Virus record (IMG/VR): IMGVR_UViG_3300025030_000271
Span: 1 to 37,357 of that record
Source of the DNA: a virus
Reading direction: 5' to 3' (one strand)
Length of the DNA stretch: 37,357 nucleotides
The translations under genes and the position numbers were made by a program. This document shows positions 25,278 through 35,439 of the stretch, piece after piece (position 1 is the stretch's first letter; every line of letters starts with the position of its first letter). Below the pieces are notes generated by a model, which searched no databases, was not told the DNA's origin, and saw only the letters and a program-made list of their open reading frames with translations.

Positions 25278-25364
25278 CCCCAACCCGGCGCTCAACCTCG
25301 CTCCCTTCGGTCGCTGGACGCTGCGCGATAAAGCCGCGCAGCGCCGGTTAGCTCTACGTTGGGG
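25278..25364 (+). other. attC site B1
   Basis: R'' CCCCAAC (25278-25284), spacer CCGGC, L'' GCTCAACC with one extra C, loop with CTCCCTTCGGTCG and a GCTGCGCG/CGCGCAGC stem, L' GGTTAGC, spacer TCTAC, R' GTTGGGG (25358-25364). A textbook attC; the extra base in L'' fixes rightward orientation. Confidence 0.93.
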
Positions 25365-25696
25365 GTCATCTGCGCACGCCCGAATTCCGTCAGTTCCGCA
25401 ACGTACTCGGTATATCCGCCAGCGGCATCTCGCGGTTCGTACCGGAGCAGCCCGGCATCCAGCATCCGTTCGGCCATGATGTATGTCGGTGAGCCAAGGC
25501 TGCCAGCCCCGCGCCCGTGAACGTGCATTTGCGTTGGGGTATTCTTCACCCACTCGCAGGCCCTCGGGTTCGACAGCCTCCGCAGCCACTCACGCATGGC
25601 CGGTGTGATAGCCCGCTTCGTGGTCAAGACCCCCAACCCGTCGTCCAACGCGGACGTGCCGCTCGATGCTTCGTTGTTGCTCGGTGCGTTATCCAT
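25292..25696 (-). CDS. Cassette B2 gene, antisense, unknown protein
   Basis: A 134-residue protein from ATG 25696 inside the loop of attC B2. Residues 8-22 (NEASSGTSALDDGLGV) are encoded by attC. The body (ITPAMREWLRRLSNPRACEW ... MLDAGLLRYEPRDAAGGYTEY) looks like a small winged-helix-like unit. The tail (TPNVELTGAARLYRAA) is attC B1 read antisense. It runs with phage transcription. Confidence 0.6.
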   Translation of the reverse strand: MDNAPSNNEASSGTSALDDGLGVLTTKRAITPAMREWLRRLSNPRACEWVKNTPTQMHVHGRGAGSLGSPTYIMAERMLDAGLLRYEPRDAAGGYTEYVAELTEFGRAQMTPNVELTGAARLYRAASSDRRERG

Positions 25697-29218: not shown

Positions 29219-29475
29219 TGGTCTCAAACGTCGAGCCAAAGGCAGGTGATTCGTTCATTGACGTGTCTGGAACCACCCTGCGGGTAACTAGGCGCGTTCA
29301 CTGCGGCAAGACTTGCGGTGATGGATACTTGCATATTGTTCAACCTTCCAGCGTGGACGAGGGCGCGTTCTCGCCAGCACAAGACATAACAATATATTTA
29401 CGCACCGCGGCAATGGCAAAATTGCTCGCACTAGCTTTTACTGAGTTTGCTGCCGCCATCGAAGGAGATGCATGA
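29218..29475 (+). CDS. Small phage protein of unknown function
   Basis: An 85-residue protein between annealing protein and exonuclease, coupled to both by overlaps. It is beta-rich (GTTLRVTRRVHCGKTCGDGY) with an Ala-rich helical end. No recognised motif; possibly an accessory of the recombination pair. Confidence 0.55.
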   Translation: MVSNVEPKAGDSFIDVSGTTLRVTRRVHCGKTCGDGYLHIVQPSSVDEGAFSPAQDITIYLRTAAMAKLLALAFTEFAAAIEGDA

Positions 29476-31109
29476 AAATGAAGCCGATCAACCTCGTACC
29501 CGGCTCGCCGGAATGGATCAAGTCGCGCAGCGCATCGAAAGCTCCGGCAGTCATGGGCGCCAGCAAGTACCAGTCTCGCAGCGATCTGCTGAAAGTGATG
29601 GCAACGGGCATCACCAAGGACGTCGACGCGGCCACTCAAGCGCGATTCGACGCCGGCCATGCCAGCGAAGCCGCGGCGCGTGAGATTGCCGAGGACATTG
29701 TTTGTGATGGCCTGTCGCCGGTCTGCGGGGAATCGGACGACGGATACCTGACGGCGAGCTTCGACGGCTTGACGTTCGACGGGCGTATCGGCTACGAGCA
29801 TAAGCTGTGGAACGAAAGTCTTGCCACCGCCGTCAGCACCAACGATCTGCCTGAAGAATATAAGTGGCAGATGGATCAGCATATTCTCGTCGGCGGGCTG
29901 GAATACGTCCTGTTCATGGTTTCTGATGGCACCCGCGAGAAGTGCGTTTCGATGGAGTACCGCTCGACGTCGGAACGCGCCGCTGCGCTGATTGCGGCGT
30001 GGAGGATGTTCGACGCCGACCTCGCCGCCTACCAGCACACCGAAGCCGCGCCGGAAGTAGTCGCCGCGCCGCAGATGGCGCTGCCCGCCCTGTCGATTCA
30101 GGTCAGCGGATCAATCAGTCTGATCGACAATCTCGAAATATTCGGTGCGAAGCTGGGCGCATTCATTGCCGGCCTTCCCGAAAATCCAGCCACAGATCAG
30201 GAATTCGCCGACGCCGACGCCGCAGTCAAGACGCTCAAGACCGCCGAGGAAGCCCTGGACGCCGCCGAGTCCTCTGCGCTGGCGCAAACGGCAAGCATTG
30301 ACCAGATGCGCCGCACCGTGGGCTTGTACCGCGATCAGGCACGCACTGCAAGGCTGATGCTCGACAAGCTAGTCAAGGCCCGGAAGGAAAGTATCCGGGT
30401 CGAGATCGTGCTTGAAGCCAGCACAAAACTGGCGGAGCATATCGCCGACCTGAACAAGCGCATCGGCAAACCCTACATGCCGGCGGCGCACGGTGATTTT
30501 TCAGGCGCCATCAAGGGCATGAAGAAAGTTTTGACTTTGCGCGACGCCTGTGATGCAGAGTTGGCGCGATGCAAGATCGAAGCCAACGTCATCGCCGACA
30601 AGATCAGCATCAACCTTGCGAGTTTGCGCGAACTTGCCGCAGATCACGCTTTCCTCTTTGCTGACACGCAAGCCCTCGTTACCGGGAAGGCGAACGACGA
30701 TCTGGTGTTGCTCATCAAGAGCCGGATCAGCGACCACAAGGCCACCGAGGCGAAGAAACTGGAGGCCATAAAAGAGTCGGCGCGGATCGAGGCAGAAAAG
30801 AATGCAGAGGCAAAAATCAAGGCCGAGCAGGAGAGTCTAGCTGCTGAAGCGTTGGCTTCAGTAAAAGCTGCGTCGCCAATGCTACAGGCGATTATCGAAC
30901 CTGCACCCCAGCAGACCGCACAACCTGCCCCAGTAGTCGATTCACGGCCCATATCGCCGCCTGTCCGAGATGCGGCCACCAGACCAACCGATTGCCAAAT
31001 CGTCGAGGTACTCGCCCTACATTACAGAGTACACGAGTCAAAGGTTATCGAGTGGCTTCTGGATATGGACATCGACAAGCAATCCGTGAATCTTGCGGGG
31101 GCAATGTGA
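29472..31109 (+). CDS. YqaJ-type viral exonuclease with long helical C-terminus
   Basis: A 545-residue protein. Residues 1-190 form a YqaJ/lambda-exonuclease-like nuclease: GSPEWIKSRSASKAPAVMGA, then RFDAGHASEAAAREIAED, and the catalytic D...E-x-K region SFDGLTFDGRIGYEHKLW (about 94-111). The rest is a long helical, Lys/Ala/Glu-rich region with a Pro-rich hinge near 490, resembling DUF1351-type extensions. It would resect 5' ends for the annealing protein. The long extension is larger than in most family members. Confidence 0.8.
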   Translation: MKMKPINLVPGSPEWIKSRSASKAPAVMGASKYQSRSDLLKVMATGITKDVDAATQARFDAGHASEAAAREIAEDIVCDGLSPVCGESDDGYLTASFDGLTFDGRIGYEHKLWNESLATAVSTNDLPEEYKWQMDQHILVGGLEYVLFMVSDGTREKCVSMEYRSTSERAAALIAAWRMFDADLAAYQHTEAAPEVVAAPQMALPALSIQVSGSISLIDNLEIFGAKLGAFIAGLPENPATDQEFADADAAVKTLKTAEEALDAAESSALAQTASIDQMRRTVGLYRDQARTARLMLDKLVKARKESIRVEIVLEASTKLAEHIADLNKRIGKPYMPAAHGDFSGAIKGMKKVLTLRDACDAELARCKIEANVIADKISINLASLRELAADHAFLFADTQALVTGKANDDLVLLIKSRISDHKATEAKKLEAIKESARIEAEKNAEAKIKAEQESLAAEALASVKAASPMLQAIIEPAPQQTAQPAPVVDSRPISPPVRDAATRPTDCQIVEVLALHYRVHESKVIEWLLDMDIDKQSVNLAGAM

Positions 31110-31199: not shown

Positions 31200-31475
31200 A
31201 TGAACAAAGCAAAATACTTTGACAGTGCGTACCCCGGAAGCATGTCGGAGCGCGAAGACGGTAGCTATGTGGAGAAGTCGGACAGCGAAACCCTTGCCAA
31301 CGCGCTATTGCAAAACCTATACGCGGCACAGCGCGAGGCCGAAGACTGGAAAGATGCGGCGATACAGCTTGAAAAGCGGCTGAAGGATATTGGCGACTTT
31401 GCCCATGACCGAAGCAAAGGCCCGGCAATCGAGGATGATCTTTGGGAAGTACGGCGAATGGCATACGGCCTATGA
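31200..31475 (+). CDS. Last native gene of the rightward early operon
   Basis: A 91-residue protein from ATG 31200 with AGGAGGGGAAGAAC upstream. It has an acidic helical middle (LQNLYAAQREAEDWKDAAIQ, then LEKRLKDIGDF), consistent with a coiled coil. Its stop TGA is two bases before the outer core site of array C, so the array entered right behind it. Confidence 0.65.
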   Translation: MNKAKYFDSAYPGSMSEREDGSYVEKSDSETLANALLQNLYAAQREAEDWKDAAIQLEKRLKDIGDFAHDRSKGPAIEDDLWEVRRMAYGL

Positions 31476-31476
31476 C

Positions 31477-31565
31477 GCCGAACGTAGAGCTAACCGGCTC
31501 ACGGGCGGCCTTATCGCCCGTGAGCCCAGAGAGCGAAGCGAACGAGGTTGAGCGCCGGGTTGGAG
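31477..31565 (-). other. attC site C7, array end
   Basis: On the minus strand: R'' CTCCAAC (31565-31559), spacer CCGGC, L'' GCTCAACC with extra C, loop with CGTTCGCTTCGCTC and a GGCTCACGGGCG stem, L' GGTTAGC, spacer TCTAC, R' GTTCGGC (31483-31477). R'' exactly complements the cassette's leading GTTGGAG. Confidence 0.92.
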
Positions 31566-31621
31566 GTAACGGGCCATGACACTGGACGAATACCTCACGG
31601 AATGCGAGCTGCCAGAGAACC

Positions 31622-31903
31622 TCATGCCGTACCGCCGGGCGTTGATGTCCTTAGCTTGTGAAGCGCGGCGATGTGCTCTTGTGTCTTCTCGCTCGTGCAC
31701 AGATGGCGAAGCAGCCCAATGGTGCCGGCAGCAGCCACTCGCGATGCTTGAGCATGGCGTTGCTGGTGCATTGCTAGGATGTCGTCAATGGCTTTCGCGT
31801 TTGCTACGCCAGTCATTACCACGACATCTATCAATGTTCTGGCGATGTCTATCAACGCGACTTCGGTTTCAGAAGGCTGCGGCGGAATTGGAAATTCACT
31901 CAT
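31622..31903 (-). CDS. Cassette C7 gene, helical protein
   Basis: A 93-residue protein (MSEFPIPPQPSETEVALIDI) with amphipathic helices (ARTLIDVVVMTGVANAKAID) and a basic end. It is in standard cassette orientation. The core site GTTGGAGGT lies nine bases before the ATG and doubles as its ribosome site. Function unknown. A frame on the opposite strand is its shadow. Confidence 0.65.
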   Translation of the reverse strand: MSEFPIPPQPSETEVALIDIARTLIDVVVMTGVANAKAIDDILAMHQQRHAQASRVAAAGTIGLLRHLCTSEKTQEHIAALHKLRTSTPGGTA

Positions 31904-31913
31904 GTGTAGTTAC

Positions 31914-31983
31914 CTCCAACGACAGAGTGGAGGGGCGCGACGCAGCCTTATCGCGGCGCGTCCCTTCGCACGACGGGTTGTGC
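31914..31983 (-). other. attC site C6
   Basis: Minus strand: R'' GCACAAC (31983-31977), spacer CCGTC, L'' GTGCGAAGGG with extra C, loop with a CGCCGCGATAAGGCTGCGTCG-like stem, L' CCCCTCCAC, spacer TCTGTC, R' GTTGGAG (31920-31914). R'' exactly complements GTTGTGC at 33308-33302, which fixes cassette C6 as one 1.3-kb unit. Confidence 0.88.
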
Positions 31984-32006
31984 GGCAACGTAACTACGGA
32001 GAACGA

Positions 32007-32039
32007 ATGAATGAGTTGGCTCTTTTCGCAGGCGCTGGT
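32007..32039 (+). pseudogene. 5' remnant of a C5-methyltransferase gene
   Basis: ATG 32007, with GGAGAACGA before it, begins MNELALFAGAG, the start and motif I of a C5-cytosine methyltransferase, and then diverges. The same protein motif recurs intact at the methyltransferase start (residues 12-20) 0.55 kb downstream, with different synonymous codons. The nuclease gene between them has evidently split off this original 5' end. Confidence 0.7.
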
Positions 32040-32068
32040 ATAATGAAGCCGCTTATTCGGGAGGCTTC

Positions 32069-32563
32069 ATGGAAACCAAGCGGTGCAGCAAATGCGGTAA
32101 CGATCTACCGCTATCTGCGTTTTACCAGCGCACAGGCGCAAAATCGCACCACTCAGCTTGCAAGGTGTGCGAGCGCGCAATGGCAAAGGATTGGTACGAG
32201 CGCAACAAGGACAAGGCAACAGCCAAGGTCAAGGAGTGGCGGCAACAGAATAGCGATGCCGTCAAGCAGTACCGGGCCGACAACAGGCAGAAGCACTACC
32301 GGCAAGAGCTTGGCAGGAAATACGGCGTTGAGCCATCTTGGTTCGACGAGCAGTTACAGCGCCAAGGCAATGCGTGCGTGTGCTGCAAGCGCCAATTCCA
32401 GTGGGGCGGCAAGCAAACCACGCCGCATGTTGATCACTGCCACAACACCAAAGCGATTCGCGGAATTCTCTGTAACCGATGCAACACCGTTCTTGGCTTG
32501 TGCGAAGACGACGACAAGTTGCTTTCGGCTTTGGCGAGGTATCTGAGGAAATGTCATGGCTGA
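32069..32563 (+). CDS. Endonuclease VII-type HNH nuclease
   Basis: A 164-residue protein with an N-terminal zinc finger (RCSKCGNDLPLSAF ... CKVCERA) and a C-terminal recombination-endonuclease-VII core (CVCCKRQF, VDHCHNTKAIRGILCNRCN, LGLCEDDDKLL). GGGAGGCTTC precedes its ATG. This type acts as a freestanding homing endonuclease in phages. It sits inside the start of the methyltransferase gene of cassette C6 and overlaps the restored start by eight bases. Confidence 0.85.
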   Translation: METKRCSKCGNDLPLSAFYQRTGAKSHHSACKVCERAMAKDWYERNKDKATAKVKEWRQQNSDAVKQYRADNRQKHYRQELGRKYGVEPSWFDEQLQRQGNACVCCKRQFQWGGKQTTPHVDHCHNTKAIRGILCNRCNTVLGLCEDDDKLLSALARYLRKCHG

Positions 32564-33374
32564 TAAGTCGGGCGCTGATGGAGGATTACGCGAACTCGCG
32601 CTCTTCGCTGGGGCTGGTGGCGGAATACTCGGGGGCAAGCTGCTCGGGTGGCGAACCGTTTGCGCTGTTGAGCGTGATGGATACGCCGCACAAGTTCTGG
32701 CACAGCGGCAAAACGATGGATGCCTTGAGCCTTTCCCGATTTGGGCTGACGTGTGCAGTTTTGACGGAAAGCCTTGGGCTGGAATTGTTGACGTTGTTTC
32801 GGGCGGCTTTCCGTGCCAAGACATCAGCAGCGCGGGGAAAGGCGCAGGACTCGACGGCGAACGCTCTGGCCTCTGGCGCGAAATGGCCCGGATCATTGGC
32901 GAGGTTCGACCGCGATTCGTTTTCGTGGAGAACTCCCCAATGCTCACTCTTCGAGGACTCGGAGCCGTGCTTGGAGACTTGGCCGCGATGGGGTTTGATG
33001 CACGGTGGGGAGTGCTGGGAGCTTCCGCCATTGGCGCACCGCACCGAAGAGAGCGAATCTGGATTGTTGCCTACGCTGACCCTGATTTCGTGCGAGCACC
33101 CTGGACGTTTCAAGCGCAAAGACGGGCAACAGACCTGCATAAGCATGGAGTTGGCGAAGCGGGACAACTGGGAAGCTGGTGGGAAGTACAACCCGAACCA
33201 TGCAGCGTGGTTTATGGCATGGCCGGAGTGGTGGACAGACTTAGGCCATTCGGCAACGGACAAGTACCGTCTGTGGCGGCAACGGCATGGCGGATTTTGA
33301 CGCACAACGTAGAGCTAACCGGCTCCGGGCAGGTTCATCGCCCGGAGTCCAGCGACCGAAGGGAGCGAGGTTGA
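32556..33374 (+). CDS. C5-cytosine DNA methyltransferase (cassette C6)
   Basis: A 272-residue Dcm-family enzyme: motif I LALFAGAGGGILGGKLLGW, motif IV SGGFPCQDIS with the catalytic Cys, motif VI region FVENSPML, motif VIII GAPHRRERIW, and a late NGQVPSVAATAW. The usual E-N-V is E-N-S here. It is short, with a small target domain. Residues 250-272 (NVELTGSGQVHRPES) are encoded by attC C5. It may protect phage DNA from host restriction. No partner restriction enzyme is present. Confidence 0.82.
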   Translation: MADKSGADGGLRELALFAGAGGGILGGKLLGWRTVCAVERDGYAAQVLAQRQNDGCLEPFPIWADVCSFDGKPWAGIVDVVSGGFPCQDISSAGKGAGLDGERSGLWREMARIIGEVRPRFVFVENSPMLTLRGLGAVLGDLAAMGFDARWGVLGASAIGAPHRRERIWIVAYADPDFVRAPWTFQAQRRATDLHKHGVGEAGQLGSWWEVQPEPCSVVYGMAGVVDRLRPFGNGQVPSVAATAWRILTHNVELTGSGQVHRPESSDRRERG

Positions 33375-33388
33375 GCGCCGGGTTAGGG
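33302..33388 (-). other. attC site C5
   Basis: Minus strand: R'' CCCTAAC (33388-33382), spacer CCGGC, L'' GCTCAACC with extra C, loop with CTCCCTTCGGTCG and a CTCCGGGC stem, L' GGTTAGC, spacer TCTAC, R' GTTGTGC (33308-33302). Closely similar to attC B1. R'' has one mismatch to its cassette's leading GTTAGAG. Confidence 0.9.
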
Positions 33389-33436
33389 CGCCACCGGGAA
33401 AACAGACCAGCGGCGCTTAGAAAAAAGAGGGAACGA

Positions 33437-33637
33437 ATGCTTACGATAGAGCGAGGGAAGGCGCTAGACAACGAGATCATGAGGGCGATGGCAATCCCGA
33501 TCCGCACAGAACAAATGCTGCACGGTAAAGGGCTGATTGTTGTGCAGTGGATTGCGGAGGACCCAACGGTAGCCGGGTATGAGTTCTTGGCTGAGTACAT
33601 TGCTATGCGAATAAAGGCCATGCGCTCTAACGTGTAG
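33437..33637 (+). CDS. Cassette C5 gene, small helical protein
   Basis: A 66-residue protein from ATG 33437 with GAGGGAACGA before it (MLTIERGKALDNEIMRAMAI, then LIVVQWIAEDPTVAGYEFLA). The last residues (MRSNV) and stop lie in attC C4. It runs with the early operon, antisense to attC. Function unknown. Confidence 0.6.
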   Translation: MLTIERGKALDNEIMRAMAIPIRTEQMLHGKGLIVVQWIAEDPTVAGYEFLAEYIAMRIKAMRSNV

Positions 33638-33747
33638 GTGAGGCGCGGCCCCACCGCGGAAGGAGAAACGAAGTGACAACGACAAAGACACCGCAGGACG
33701 CAAACGAAGGCACGATAGGGGCCGTCGCCTCGACCGCCGGGTTGGGG
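33625..33747 (-). other. attC site C4
   Basis: Minus strand: R'' CCCCAAC (33747-33741), spacer CCGGC, L'' GGTCGAGGCG with extra C, a long loop carrying the start of the antisense gene, L' CGCCTCACC, spacer TACAC, R' GTTAGAG (33631-33625). R'' exactly complements its leading GTTGGGG. Confidence 0.86.
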
Positions 33748-34377
33748 GTACCGACCACTTGCAGAGATGCGTTCGTTGCGATGGTGAGGGACGAGAATTT
33801 CTACCGCGAGGCGTGGTCAAGATGGTCGCTGAAGGCACACTGGACAGGTGCAGTAGGCGGGTTTGCCGACGAAATGTTGCAAAAGCGGTGGAAGGATTTT
33901 CAGGCTGGATGGTGCGCATGCACCCCCAACGCAAAAGTCAGCGGTGGCGGAACGCCGTCCGCTGGACTGCCGGGTTCGACCACTGCACCGACGAAGGATA
34001 GAACTGAAATGCCGAAATGTGGAGGTCGTGAATACTGCACGCGGATGCCTTTTTGCGGCTGTGGCGGTCCGACCGAGGAAGAGATAGACGAAGACGCGCT
34101 GGAGCGCTTCACGAAGGCGATGCGCGTAAAACTGGCGGCGTCCAGAGCCAAGGGGCGGCACGGATGGCACAACCCAGATGTTTGCAGCGTCGAGGATTTG
34201 GCGCGAATGTTTTTCGATCATGTTGCAAAGGGCGATCTGGTCGACATAGCAAACTTTGCGATGTTTCTTCATCAGCGCAAGGGCCGCCCGGAGACTTGGC
34301 GGCTCACTCACCCCGACACATGGGGTGAGGGGTCGAACGTAGAGCTAACCGGCGCTGCGCGCCACGAAAGGGAGTAA
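33673..34377 (+). CDS. Fusion of cassette C4 and C3 genes across an attC
   Basis: A continuous 234-residue frame from GTG 33673 with AAGGAGAAACGAA before it. Residues 1-25 (NEGTIGAVASTAGLGV region) are encoded by attC C4. Residues 26-84 are the C4 protein (FVAMVRDENFYREAWSRWSL, then FADEMLQKRWKDFQAGW). Residues 85-110 (TPNAKVSGGGTPSAGLPGS) are attC C3 read antisense as a linker. The rest is the C3 protein. The end (GSNVELTGAARHERE) comes from attC C2. Confidence 0.65.
   Translation: MTTTKTPQDANEGTIGAVASTAGLGVPTTCRDAFVAMVRDENFYREAWSRWSLKAHWTGAVGGFADEMLQKRWKDFQAGWCACTPNAKVSGGGTPSAGLPGSTTAPTKDRTEMPKCGGREYCTRMPFCGCGGPTEEEIDEDALERFTKAMRVKLAASRAKGRHGWHNPDVCSVEDLARMFFDHVAKGDLVDIANFAMFLHQRKGRPETWRLTHPDTWGEGSNVELTGAARHERE
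33924..33980 (-). other. attC site C3
   Basis: Minus strand: R'' GTCGAAC (33980-33974), spacer CCGGC, L'' AGTCCAGCGG with extra C, short loop, L' CCGCTGACT, spacer TTTGC, R' GTTGGGG (33930-33924). R'' exactly complements GTTCGAC at 34338. At 57 bases it is compact and fully open in the antisense frame. Confidence 0.9.
34009..34377 (+). CDS. Cassette C3 gene with its own start
   Basis: A 122-residue protein from ATG 34009 with GAAGGATAGAACTGAA upstream. It opens MPKCGGREYCTRMPFCGCGG, a Cys-rich knuckle, then an acidic segment (EEEIDEDALERFTKAMRVKL) and WHNPDVCSVEDLARMFFDHV, a pattern that I recall from small phage proteins. It can be translated alone or as part of the 234-residue fusion. Confidence 0.62.
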   Translation: MPKCGGREYCTRMPFCGCGGPTEEEIDEDALERFTKAMRVKLAASRAKGRHGWHNPDVCSVEDLARMFFDHVAKGDLVDIANFAMFLHQRKGRPETWRLTHPDTWGEGSNVELTGAARHERE

Positions 34378-34454
34378 GAGCGATGACGATTGAGAAACCA
34401 CAAGATTCAGTAGCGCCTACGGGCGCAGCGTCCGCGTTGAGCGCCGGGTTGGGG
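34332..34454 (-). other. attC site C2
   Basis: Minus strand: R'' CCCCAAC (34454-34448), spacer CCGGC, L'' starting GCTCAACG, long loop with GGCGC/GCGCC elements, L' GGTTAGC, spacer TCTAC, R' GTTCGAC (34338-34332). R'' exactly complements the leading GTTGGGG of C2. Confidence 0.86.
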
Positions 34455-34503
34455 GTCCGAACCATGAAGAAGGAAAGCGACATGACTGTGTTTGTTGGTG
34501 GCA

Positions 34504-34812
34504 TTACTTGGGTAGACCAAGCGTGGCCCGAAGCTCTGCCAGAAGACCCTCGATTGAGGCTTCGTATTCTTGCTGGAAGGCTCCGAGTTCACTTGGGTCT
34601 ATGCCTAGGAATACTTTCGGCGCCGTTGGCAATTTCGGCAGCCATGCTTCTTGAAGTTCTGCGAGCACTTGTTCGGGCGGTGACGAGGAACGGCGAATTA
34701 CTGTGGCTAGAGCGGTTAGCAGTAGCGTTCGCTGGGCGTTCATTTGGCCCACGGTTTTGTGTCGGGACTCTTCAAGACGCCGGACACGATCTTCAAGGGA
34801 AGGCTGATTCAT
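34504..34812 (-). CDS. Cassette C2 gene, helical protein
   Basis: A 102-residue protein starting seven bases after the core's G run (MNQPSLEDRVRRLEESRHKT, a coiled-coil start, with LLLTALATVIRRS in the middle). Standard cassette orientation. Helical throughout, function unknown. A long frame on the opposite strand (34383-34901) is considered its shadow. Confidence 0.65.
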   Translation of the reverse strand: MNQPSLEDRVRRLEESRHKTVGQMNAQRTLLLTALATVIRRSSSPPEQVLAELQEAWLPKLPTAPKVFLGIDPSELGAFQQEYEASIEGLLAELRATLGLPK

Positions 34813-34819
34813 CTAAGAC

Positions 34820-34887
34820 CCCCAACGTTCAAGATAACCGGGCTTCGCGGCCTTATCGCGAAGCTCCGGTTGATCGCAGGGTTGGGG
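34820..34887 (-). other. attC site C1
   Basis: Minus strand: R'' CCCCAAC (34887-34881), spacer CCTGC, L'' GATCAACC with extra C, loop with CTTCGCG/CGCGAAG stem, L' GGTTATC, spacer TTGAAC, R' GTTGGGG (34826-34820). R'' exactly complements the leading GTTGGGG next to repeat copy 3. Confidence 0.92.
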
Positions 34888-34901
34888 GTCAGCGGTCATG
34901 A

Positions 34902-35366
34902 TCAAGGCGCTTTCTTTGTGGCTGGACCGGAAGATGGGACTACCGCCTGGGTGGGGGGTGCCGATTGTGCTGTGGGGGTTTGCGGTTGCGATGCAGTGGC
35001 TGGCGATTTTCCTTCAGGCGTTTTATCTGCCTTGGCTGCAAACCATACTTGCGCCCCTGTACCGATAAGCGAGGCAACCGTGAGAACGACAACAAGTTTT
35101 TGCAGTTTCGTGTTGCTCTCGTTCAGGTTGGTGATGTGGTCGTGAAGCTCCGTAACGTGACCTTGGAGAGTTTCAATGTGCGCACGTAGTAGATGGGTTC
35201 GGACTGTCTCGCAGATTTGCGGGAACTGGGAGGCGCCAAAATGTGAAGATGCTTGCGGGCGGCAAATGATCGCTGCGAAGTGCTCAAGGCGAGCTATCGG
35301 AAAGCGCGCGATTGCGCCGGAGTTAATGCTCTCTCTCACGTCGTCAAGATCATCTGAGATGCTCAT
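34902..35366 (-). CDS. Cassette C1 gene, membrane-anchored protein
   Basis: A 154-residue protein from ATG 35366, the first cassette after the attI-like repeat, in standard orientation. The N-terminal part is helical (SDDLDDVRESINSGAI), the middle a coiled coil (LQGHVTELHDHITNLNESNT). One membrane segment (LVVVLTVASLIGTGAQVWFA) follows at about 100-119, and then a Pro/Ala/Thr-rich tail. It may be a membrane-tethered surface or signalling protein. It follows the lysis operon in the same direction and could be expressed from it. Confidence 0.7.
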   Translation of the reverse strand: MSISDDLDDVRESINSGAIARFPIARLEHFAAIICRPQASSHFGASQFPQICETVRTHLLRAHIETLQGHVTELHDHITNLNESNTKLQKLVVVLTVASLIGTGAQVWFAAKADKTPEGKSPATASQPQTPTAQSAPPTQAVVPSSGPATKKAP

Positions 35367-35380
35367 TACTGAGACCCCCA

Positions 35381-35439
35381 ACGTGAAGTAGACCCCCTAA
35401 AAAACGGCGAACTGCACCCAGTAGGTGTCTAATCTGGTA
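35381..35439 (-). repeat. 59-bp attI-like repeat, copy 3
   Basis: Inverted relative to copies 1 and 2, identical over 59 bases. Its core GTTGGGG lies at 35382-35376. The outer bases encode the last residues and stop (LPD, TAG) of the DUF1353-like gene. After the short ACTG/CAGT stem and GGTG/CGCC pairing comes a T6 run, so it could also end the lysis transcript. Confidence 0.92.

Follow-up and report, generated by a model that had tools for sequence, protein, structure and literature searches.

The stretch of DNA analysed here (the window) comprises the 37,357 bases of the virus record IMGVR_UViG_3300025030_000271, and all coordinates below are window positions. The locus under study contains, in this order, a relic of the start of a C5 cytosine methyltransferase (MTase) gene, an endonuclease VII (Endo VII)-type nuclease gene (32069–32563) and an intact MTase gene with its own motif I. 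The features considered are the following:

29472–31109: YqaJ-like recombinase gene (Pfam, 24 bits, just above the cut-off)
31911–31996, + strand: attC-like site forming the left edge of a cassette (73–81 nt at 96–97% identity to two places in the uninterrupted relatives L007/L008)
32007–32039, + strand: relic of the original MTase start, MNELALFAGAG, ATGAATGAGTTGGCTCTTTTCGCAGGCGCTGGT (0 of 27 mismatches to the consensus of uninterrupted starts)
32016–32044, + strand: predicted hybrid sigma70-like promoter, with a −35 box TTGGCT in the relic, a spacing of 17 nt, a −10 box TATAAT at the junction and an extended TG (10 of 12 matches)
32040–32618, + strand: inserted element, i.e., −10 box, nuclease gene and recoded start of the MTase and of ORF X (absent from L007, with flanks matching on both sides)
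32069–32563, + strand: Endo VII-type (DHHRN) nuclease gene, 164 aa, a putative homing endonuclease (Pfam PF02945)
32551–33300, + strand: ORF X, 249 aa, in the +1 frame and covering nearly all of the MTase gene; the element supplies its start MSWLISRALMEDY (open-frame count, shuffle test)
32556–33374, + strand: intact C5 cytosine MTase, 272 aa, with the restored start MADKSGADGGLRELALFAGAG (Pfam PF00145, PHROG 363)
32592–32618, + strand: recoded copy of motif I, ELALFAGAG, GAACTCGCGCTCTTCGCTGGGGCTGGT, with the residues of the relic kept and 7 of 24 bases changed over ELALFAGA
33301–33392, + strand: attC-like site closing the cassette, with the MTase stop inside (repeat families D1/D2/D4)

The relic amounts to the first 11 codons of an MTase and MTase homology ends at 32040, which confirms the original prediction, made from the letters alone, of an MTase start at 32007 that breaks off. 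From 32011, on the same strand, this DNA doubles as the relic of the start of ORF X (MSWLFSQALV). The prediction that the same motif begins again with synonymous codons in the intact MTase holds as well for the copy at 32592–32618. This MTase matches Pfam DNA_methylase (105 bits, E = 5.4e-30) and has its catalytic motifs in place (FAGAGGG, PCQ, VENSP, RRERIW, GNGQVP); since motif I is complete and the MTase has a start of its own, the gene is not divided into two required pieces, as it is in the split-gene insertions mobA and mobE. Elsewhere in the window, a second, weak match (36% identity) to the C-terminal part of the MTase is observable at 25295–25606 on the − strand.

The nuclease gene matches Pfam Endonuclease_7 with 59 bits (E = 3.9e-16), and its residues C103, C106, D122, H123, H125, R131, C135, C138 and N139 are invariant in 10 relatives. 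It has both the DHHRN catalytic residues and the zinc-binding CX2-4C and CX2C motifs (residue list from PMC6083498). An endonuclease VII-type gene had been announced at this place, but under the name of HNH nuclease, whereas the protein is of the Endo VII/DHHRN type and not a classical HNH enzyme. Its best PDB profile matches are Hpy99I and T4 Endo VII, Hpy99I being the best match of solved structure. No relative of the nuclease was found in the bacterial genome contigs scanned with a close-relative query. Moreover, Endo VII matches from Klebsiella, Escherichia and cyanophages (<60% identity) were rejected as examples of the same arrangement, because in ZX4, the sole case of a C-methylase neighbour examined, the nuclease lies downstream of that gene.

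In the uninterrupted MTases of many phages, the same DNA as the relic is directly followed by GGTGGAGGAATACTCGG. This canonical start, with 0–4 mismatches out of 24, is found in the cassette MTases L007, L008 and L009 and in 73 of 81 nuclease-free MTase loci; the 5′ ends of uninterrupted relatives, against which the original prediction was to be checked, thus do resemble the fragment. The closest empty alleles, L007 and L008, are attC-flanked cassettes of the same kind as that of the window: the upstream attC is common to all three (97% over 73 nt) and, downstream of the site, 661 of 693 nt (95%) are identical between L007 and the window, which has the nuclease gene and the recoded start in addition, while only the short leader between attC and start codon differs otherwise. 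A second pair is formed by L117 (empty, Pseudomonas phage VB_PaD_phPA-G) and L011 (filled), which agree at 97% over the 323 nt leading to the site and at 87% over 463 nt beyond it. The mark of homing elements that carry a recoded host-gene end, namely filled and empty alleles between matching flanks, is therefore present twice (window/L007 and L011/L117). The uninterrupted motif I of L117 itself (at its start, 986–1030) has diverged at several bases of the presumed target and could represent a resistant allele; because of this divergence, the relic of L011 may have arrived with the donor.

The distribution of the insertion was examined with a profile search of viral contigs, which performed far better than exact-pattern searches for the junction (few loci) and returned 80 nuclease relatives, i.e., 34 in the clade of the window nuclease (at least 49% identity to it, or fragments of such sequences) and 46 more distant ones. 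The 34 clade loci include near-copies of one phage from related samples, and nearly all loci are environmental contigs. Every one of the 34 clade nucleases lies 20 or 32 nt before a recoded MTase motif I (6–9 mismatches out of 24 to the canonical start), and none of the 46 more distant relatives lies at this site. The relic is kept in 27 of the 34 loci, with the same junction codons; 2 of the remaining loci are cut by the contig end, and in 5 others (L255, L264–L267) it is absent though the contig continues upstream. As these loci were fetched separately, the recurrence of relic and junction rules out a chance similarity or a promoter-only origin of the relic. Beyond the relic, 11 filled loci have upstream flanks with no relation to one another (identity of 0.50 vs. 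0.49 for shuffled sequences), and conservation in those loci reaches 0.87 for the relic, 0.71 for the nuclease and 0.75 for the MTase body. Relic and recoded copy differ at 5–10 of 24 bases in all 11 loci compared, and the recoded start accompanies the nuclease in 13 of 13 nuclease-bearing MTase loci (34 of 34 in the wider set). Both the insertion point and the recoded downstream copy that had been proposed are borne out by the empty/filled pairs and by this survey.

Recoded-type starts also exist without the nuclease, in eight MTase loci (L020, L025, L030, L045, L056, L060, L061, L085), which may have donated the recoded start or remain from elements since lost. The residues KCHG upstream of L045 were considered as the scar of a lost nuclease, a candidate that was dropped because the overlapping X start dictates these residues. 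In L089/L090, the insertion is otherwise normal but the nuclease copy has an internal stop codon (L089), perhaps in a decaying element.

Mobility was assessed on a tree of the MTase body, with the start left out and 27 nuclease-bearing loci included. Nuclease presence requires 16 changes of state on this tree, at least 4 of them being forced by starred branches. On a body tree, the start types change 12 times, and the window MTase groups with two empty alleles, L007 and L009 (SH-aLRT of 99). Nucleases that are 1–2% apart at the amino-acid level adjoin MTase bodies 16–22% apart (e.g., 1% vs. 21% for L258/L263, 2% vs. 22% for L264/L265), and at 3% nuclease difference the body differs by 25%. Near-identical nucleases beside MTases 16–25% apart mean that the unit moves. 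Nuclease and body distances still correlate (Spearman 0.42), which points to transfer mostly among related phages, a part of the spread being vertical or within related phages.

This discordance, along with the attC shared with L007/L008, also agrees with the picture originally given of a mobile gene nested in a cassette nested in a phage. The left-edge attC-like site is common to the uninterrupted cassettes L007–L009, even if its hairpin, taken alone, is no better than shuffles. The nested R and L boxes and the bottom-strand fold of attC sites are recognizable at 34816–34890, with a clear hairpin (z of −7.7), while repeats of the same type at 31476–31568 and 33301–33392 have weaker folds. The region 31470–35400 of the window carries an array of attC-like sites (CALIN) on a phage, with ORFs of both strands between the sites.

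At face value, such a distribution might result from passive recombination, the nuclease and the recoded-start MTase being swapped as one unit by ordinary homologous exchange at motif I, without homing. Phages do recombine through short homologies, and both the nuclease-free recoded starts and the frequent swaps of start type on the body tree are compatible with this scenario. We nevertheless consider it unlikely, because the junction falls at the same codons in 27 loci, the nucleases of the clade are found at this site only and have kept their reading frame and DHHRN residues, and two pairs of alleles differ at the site essentially by the element alone. It is even less probable that the nuclease and the MTase next to it form a restriction-modification pair, an arrangement for which one might invoke the structural match to Hpy99I, the overlap of the nuclease with the MTase start and the methylase-adjacent Endo VII-motif proteins of Helicobacter (PMC6083498): most related MTases are devoid of nuclease, near-identical nucleases stand beside very different bodies, and a relic interrupting the gene would be left unexplained. 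Finally, a group I intron or an intein, with the relic as a 5′ exon spliced to the rest, would fit a relic in frame with the body and ending at a conserved codon, but is hardly credible, given that no self-splicing core is found (Rfam yields no intron match, even with E allowed up to 1), that almost no non-coding space is left and that the MTase's own start and complete motif I make splicing needless.

The target has a second property, which lies in the +1 frame. When the gene is uninterrupted, its start (ATGAATGAGTTGGCTC...) has a second ATG from which this frame reads MSWLFSQALVEEY, i.e., the beginning of ORF X (MSWL). Of 90 MTase genes, 89 have X open over 222 codons; among 61 other long genes on these contigs, only 1 has a +1 frame open over 230 codons. 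Upon synonymous shuffling of the MTase codons, X stays open over the observed length in a median of 0.25% of the trials (53 non-redundant genes). It matches the PHROG family phrog_1008, labelled DNA methyltransferase, and the annotations of Vibrio phage 1.291 and Pseudomonas phage phPA-G show X instead of the MTase. X has no match in Pfam, and its predicted structure (pLDDT of 51) displays no confident fold. X is conserved across phages and is probably an overprinted gene, so far undescribed; in the part of the literature covered, with most subscription journals outside it, we found no published description of the X overlap or of this nuclease insertion. In L083 and L084, the MTase frame stops after 142 codons and X is open for 251, a possible frameshift or decay with X kept.

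Should X be a gene, it would lock the synonymous positions of the MTase start, and this constraint would account for the uniformity of that start among MTases sharing only about 60% identity. Codons are most uniform in the first 13 conserved columns (mean modal codon of 0.83 vs. 0.73 elsewhere), the modest size of the gap being expected if the whole MTase gene is overprinted. Double coding thus probably leaves almost no room for change in the target. The recoded start has its X start (MSWLISRALMEDY) just before motif I and not on top of it, so that motif I is free for recoding while both N-termini are kept.

The relic also appears to serve the expression of the element, which occurs in two forms. 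Form I comprises the window and 12 other loci, where the −35 box (TTGGCT or CTGGCT) comes from the relic and the −10 box (TATAAT and variants) from the inserted DNA, with a spacing of 17–18 nt in 13 of 13 loci, although the intervening bases vary, indels included. In form II, the nuclease is shorter by ~40 residues at its N-terminus and continues the reading frame of the relic, so that it is read from the start codon of the MTase itself; this fusion is present in 12 of 12 loci with an automatically readable relic. The shorter, relic-fused nuclease was observed in L134/L261 and in L250–L263 and L268. Both forms would recruit the victim's start into the element's own expression signals. As a whole, the original prediction is largely upheld in its interpretation, but it had missed the +1-frame ORF, the hybrid promoter or fusion and the nuclease-free recoded-type starts.

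We conclude that the locus very probably harbours a homing element, whose nuclease inserts into the MTase start and brings a recoded replacement start. Read from the sequences, the insertion is precise, with empty sites, a relic, a recoded start, mobility between phages and a promoter-like junction or an in-frame fusion; we infer cleavage by the nuclease, its specificity and the immunity of the recoded copy. According to this model, the Endo VII-type nuclease would recognise phage C5-MTase genes by their first ~45 bp and cut near codon 11 of an unoccupied start. Repair from an element-bearing phage, through ~33 nt of homology on the left and the MTase body on the right, would then insert the nuclease gene together with the replacement start, which, by encoding the same protein with other codons, would maintain MTase function and not rebuild a contiguous target. 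As a guess, the YqaJ-like recombinase could aid such recombination. The start would be a good target because, coding for both the MTase and ORF X, it could hardly be changed by phages, and the element would escape this lock by setting the two starts in tandem instead of stacked. Whether the whole amounts to a natural home-and-rescue drive on a double-coding site locked by X, in which the element un-stacks the starts and uses host signals (relic-completed promoter or relic fusion), is in our opinion an evenly balanced question.

As far as searched, this would be the first known case of a phage homing element that mends its victim by means of a recoded gene start. Since empty, filled and recoded alleles are available in short clonable form, cleavage, immunity and drive are directly testable. 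Beyond the element, the site exposes a probable overprinted gene spanning a large phage methyltransferase family, and element and X together would offer a case of selfish elements using sequence that hosts cannot change.

Several known systems share parts of this organization. Phage-borne integron cassettes (CALINs) are likewise attC-flanked, and some carry MTases (PMC9892861), but these belong to other Pfam families and, in the available parts of that report, a nuclease nested in a cassette gene is not described. F-CphI, a DHHRN homing endonuclease of cyanophage S-PM2, resembles the window nuclease in its motifs (CX2-4C, DHxH, R, CX2C, N), its phage origin and its conserved-gene target, yet it stands alone next to psbA, and the genome that encodes it is shielded by an intron (PMC6083498), a role that the recoded start would play here. 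Like the window element, mobE (in nrdA of Aeh1) and mobA (in the T4 topoisomerase) are nuclease genes within a functionally critical part of a phage gene, but they leave their host gene in two pieces (PMC2988022), whereas here the replacement start keeps the gene whole. Synthetic home-and-rescue drives also combine a nuclease in a needed gene with an uncuttable recoded rescue, but these are engineered, CRISPR-based and used in animals (PMC7968924), so that the analogy is one of logic only. The closest parallel is offered by the fungal mitochondrial mobile ORFs (mORFs) with recoded gene ends, known from Allomyces atp6 and from Glomus atp6, atp9, cox2 and nad3 (PMC3630166). As in the window, a nuclease gene lies in a host gene, with a replacement end that is near-identical in protein and diverged synonymously, the native end being left as a relic (PMC3630166), and our element shows this same combination, with the relic in 27 of 34 loci. 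In all fungal cases, however, the replacement concerns the C-terminal end, with nucleases of the LAGLIDADG or GIY-YIG type (PMC3630166), while the window element resides in a phage, replaces the N-terminal end, encodes an Endo VII-type nuclease, builds a promoter or fusion from its relic and targets a double-coding site. By analogy, it would thus work like the fungal mORFs, yet as a different variant, phage-borne and N-terminal.
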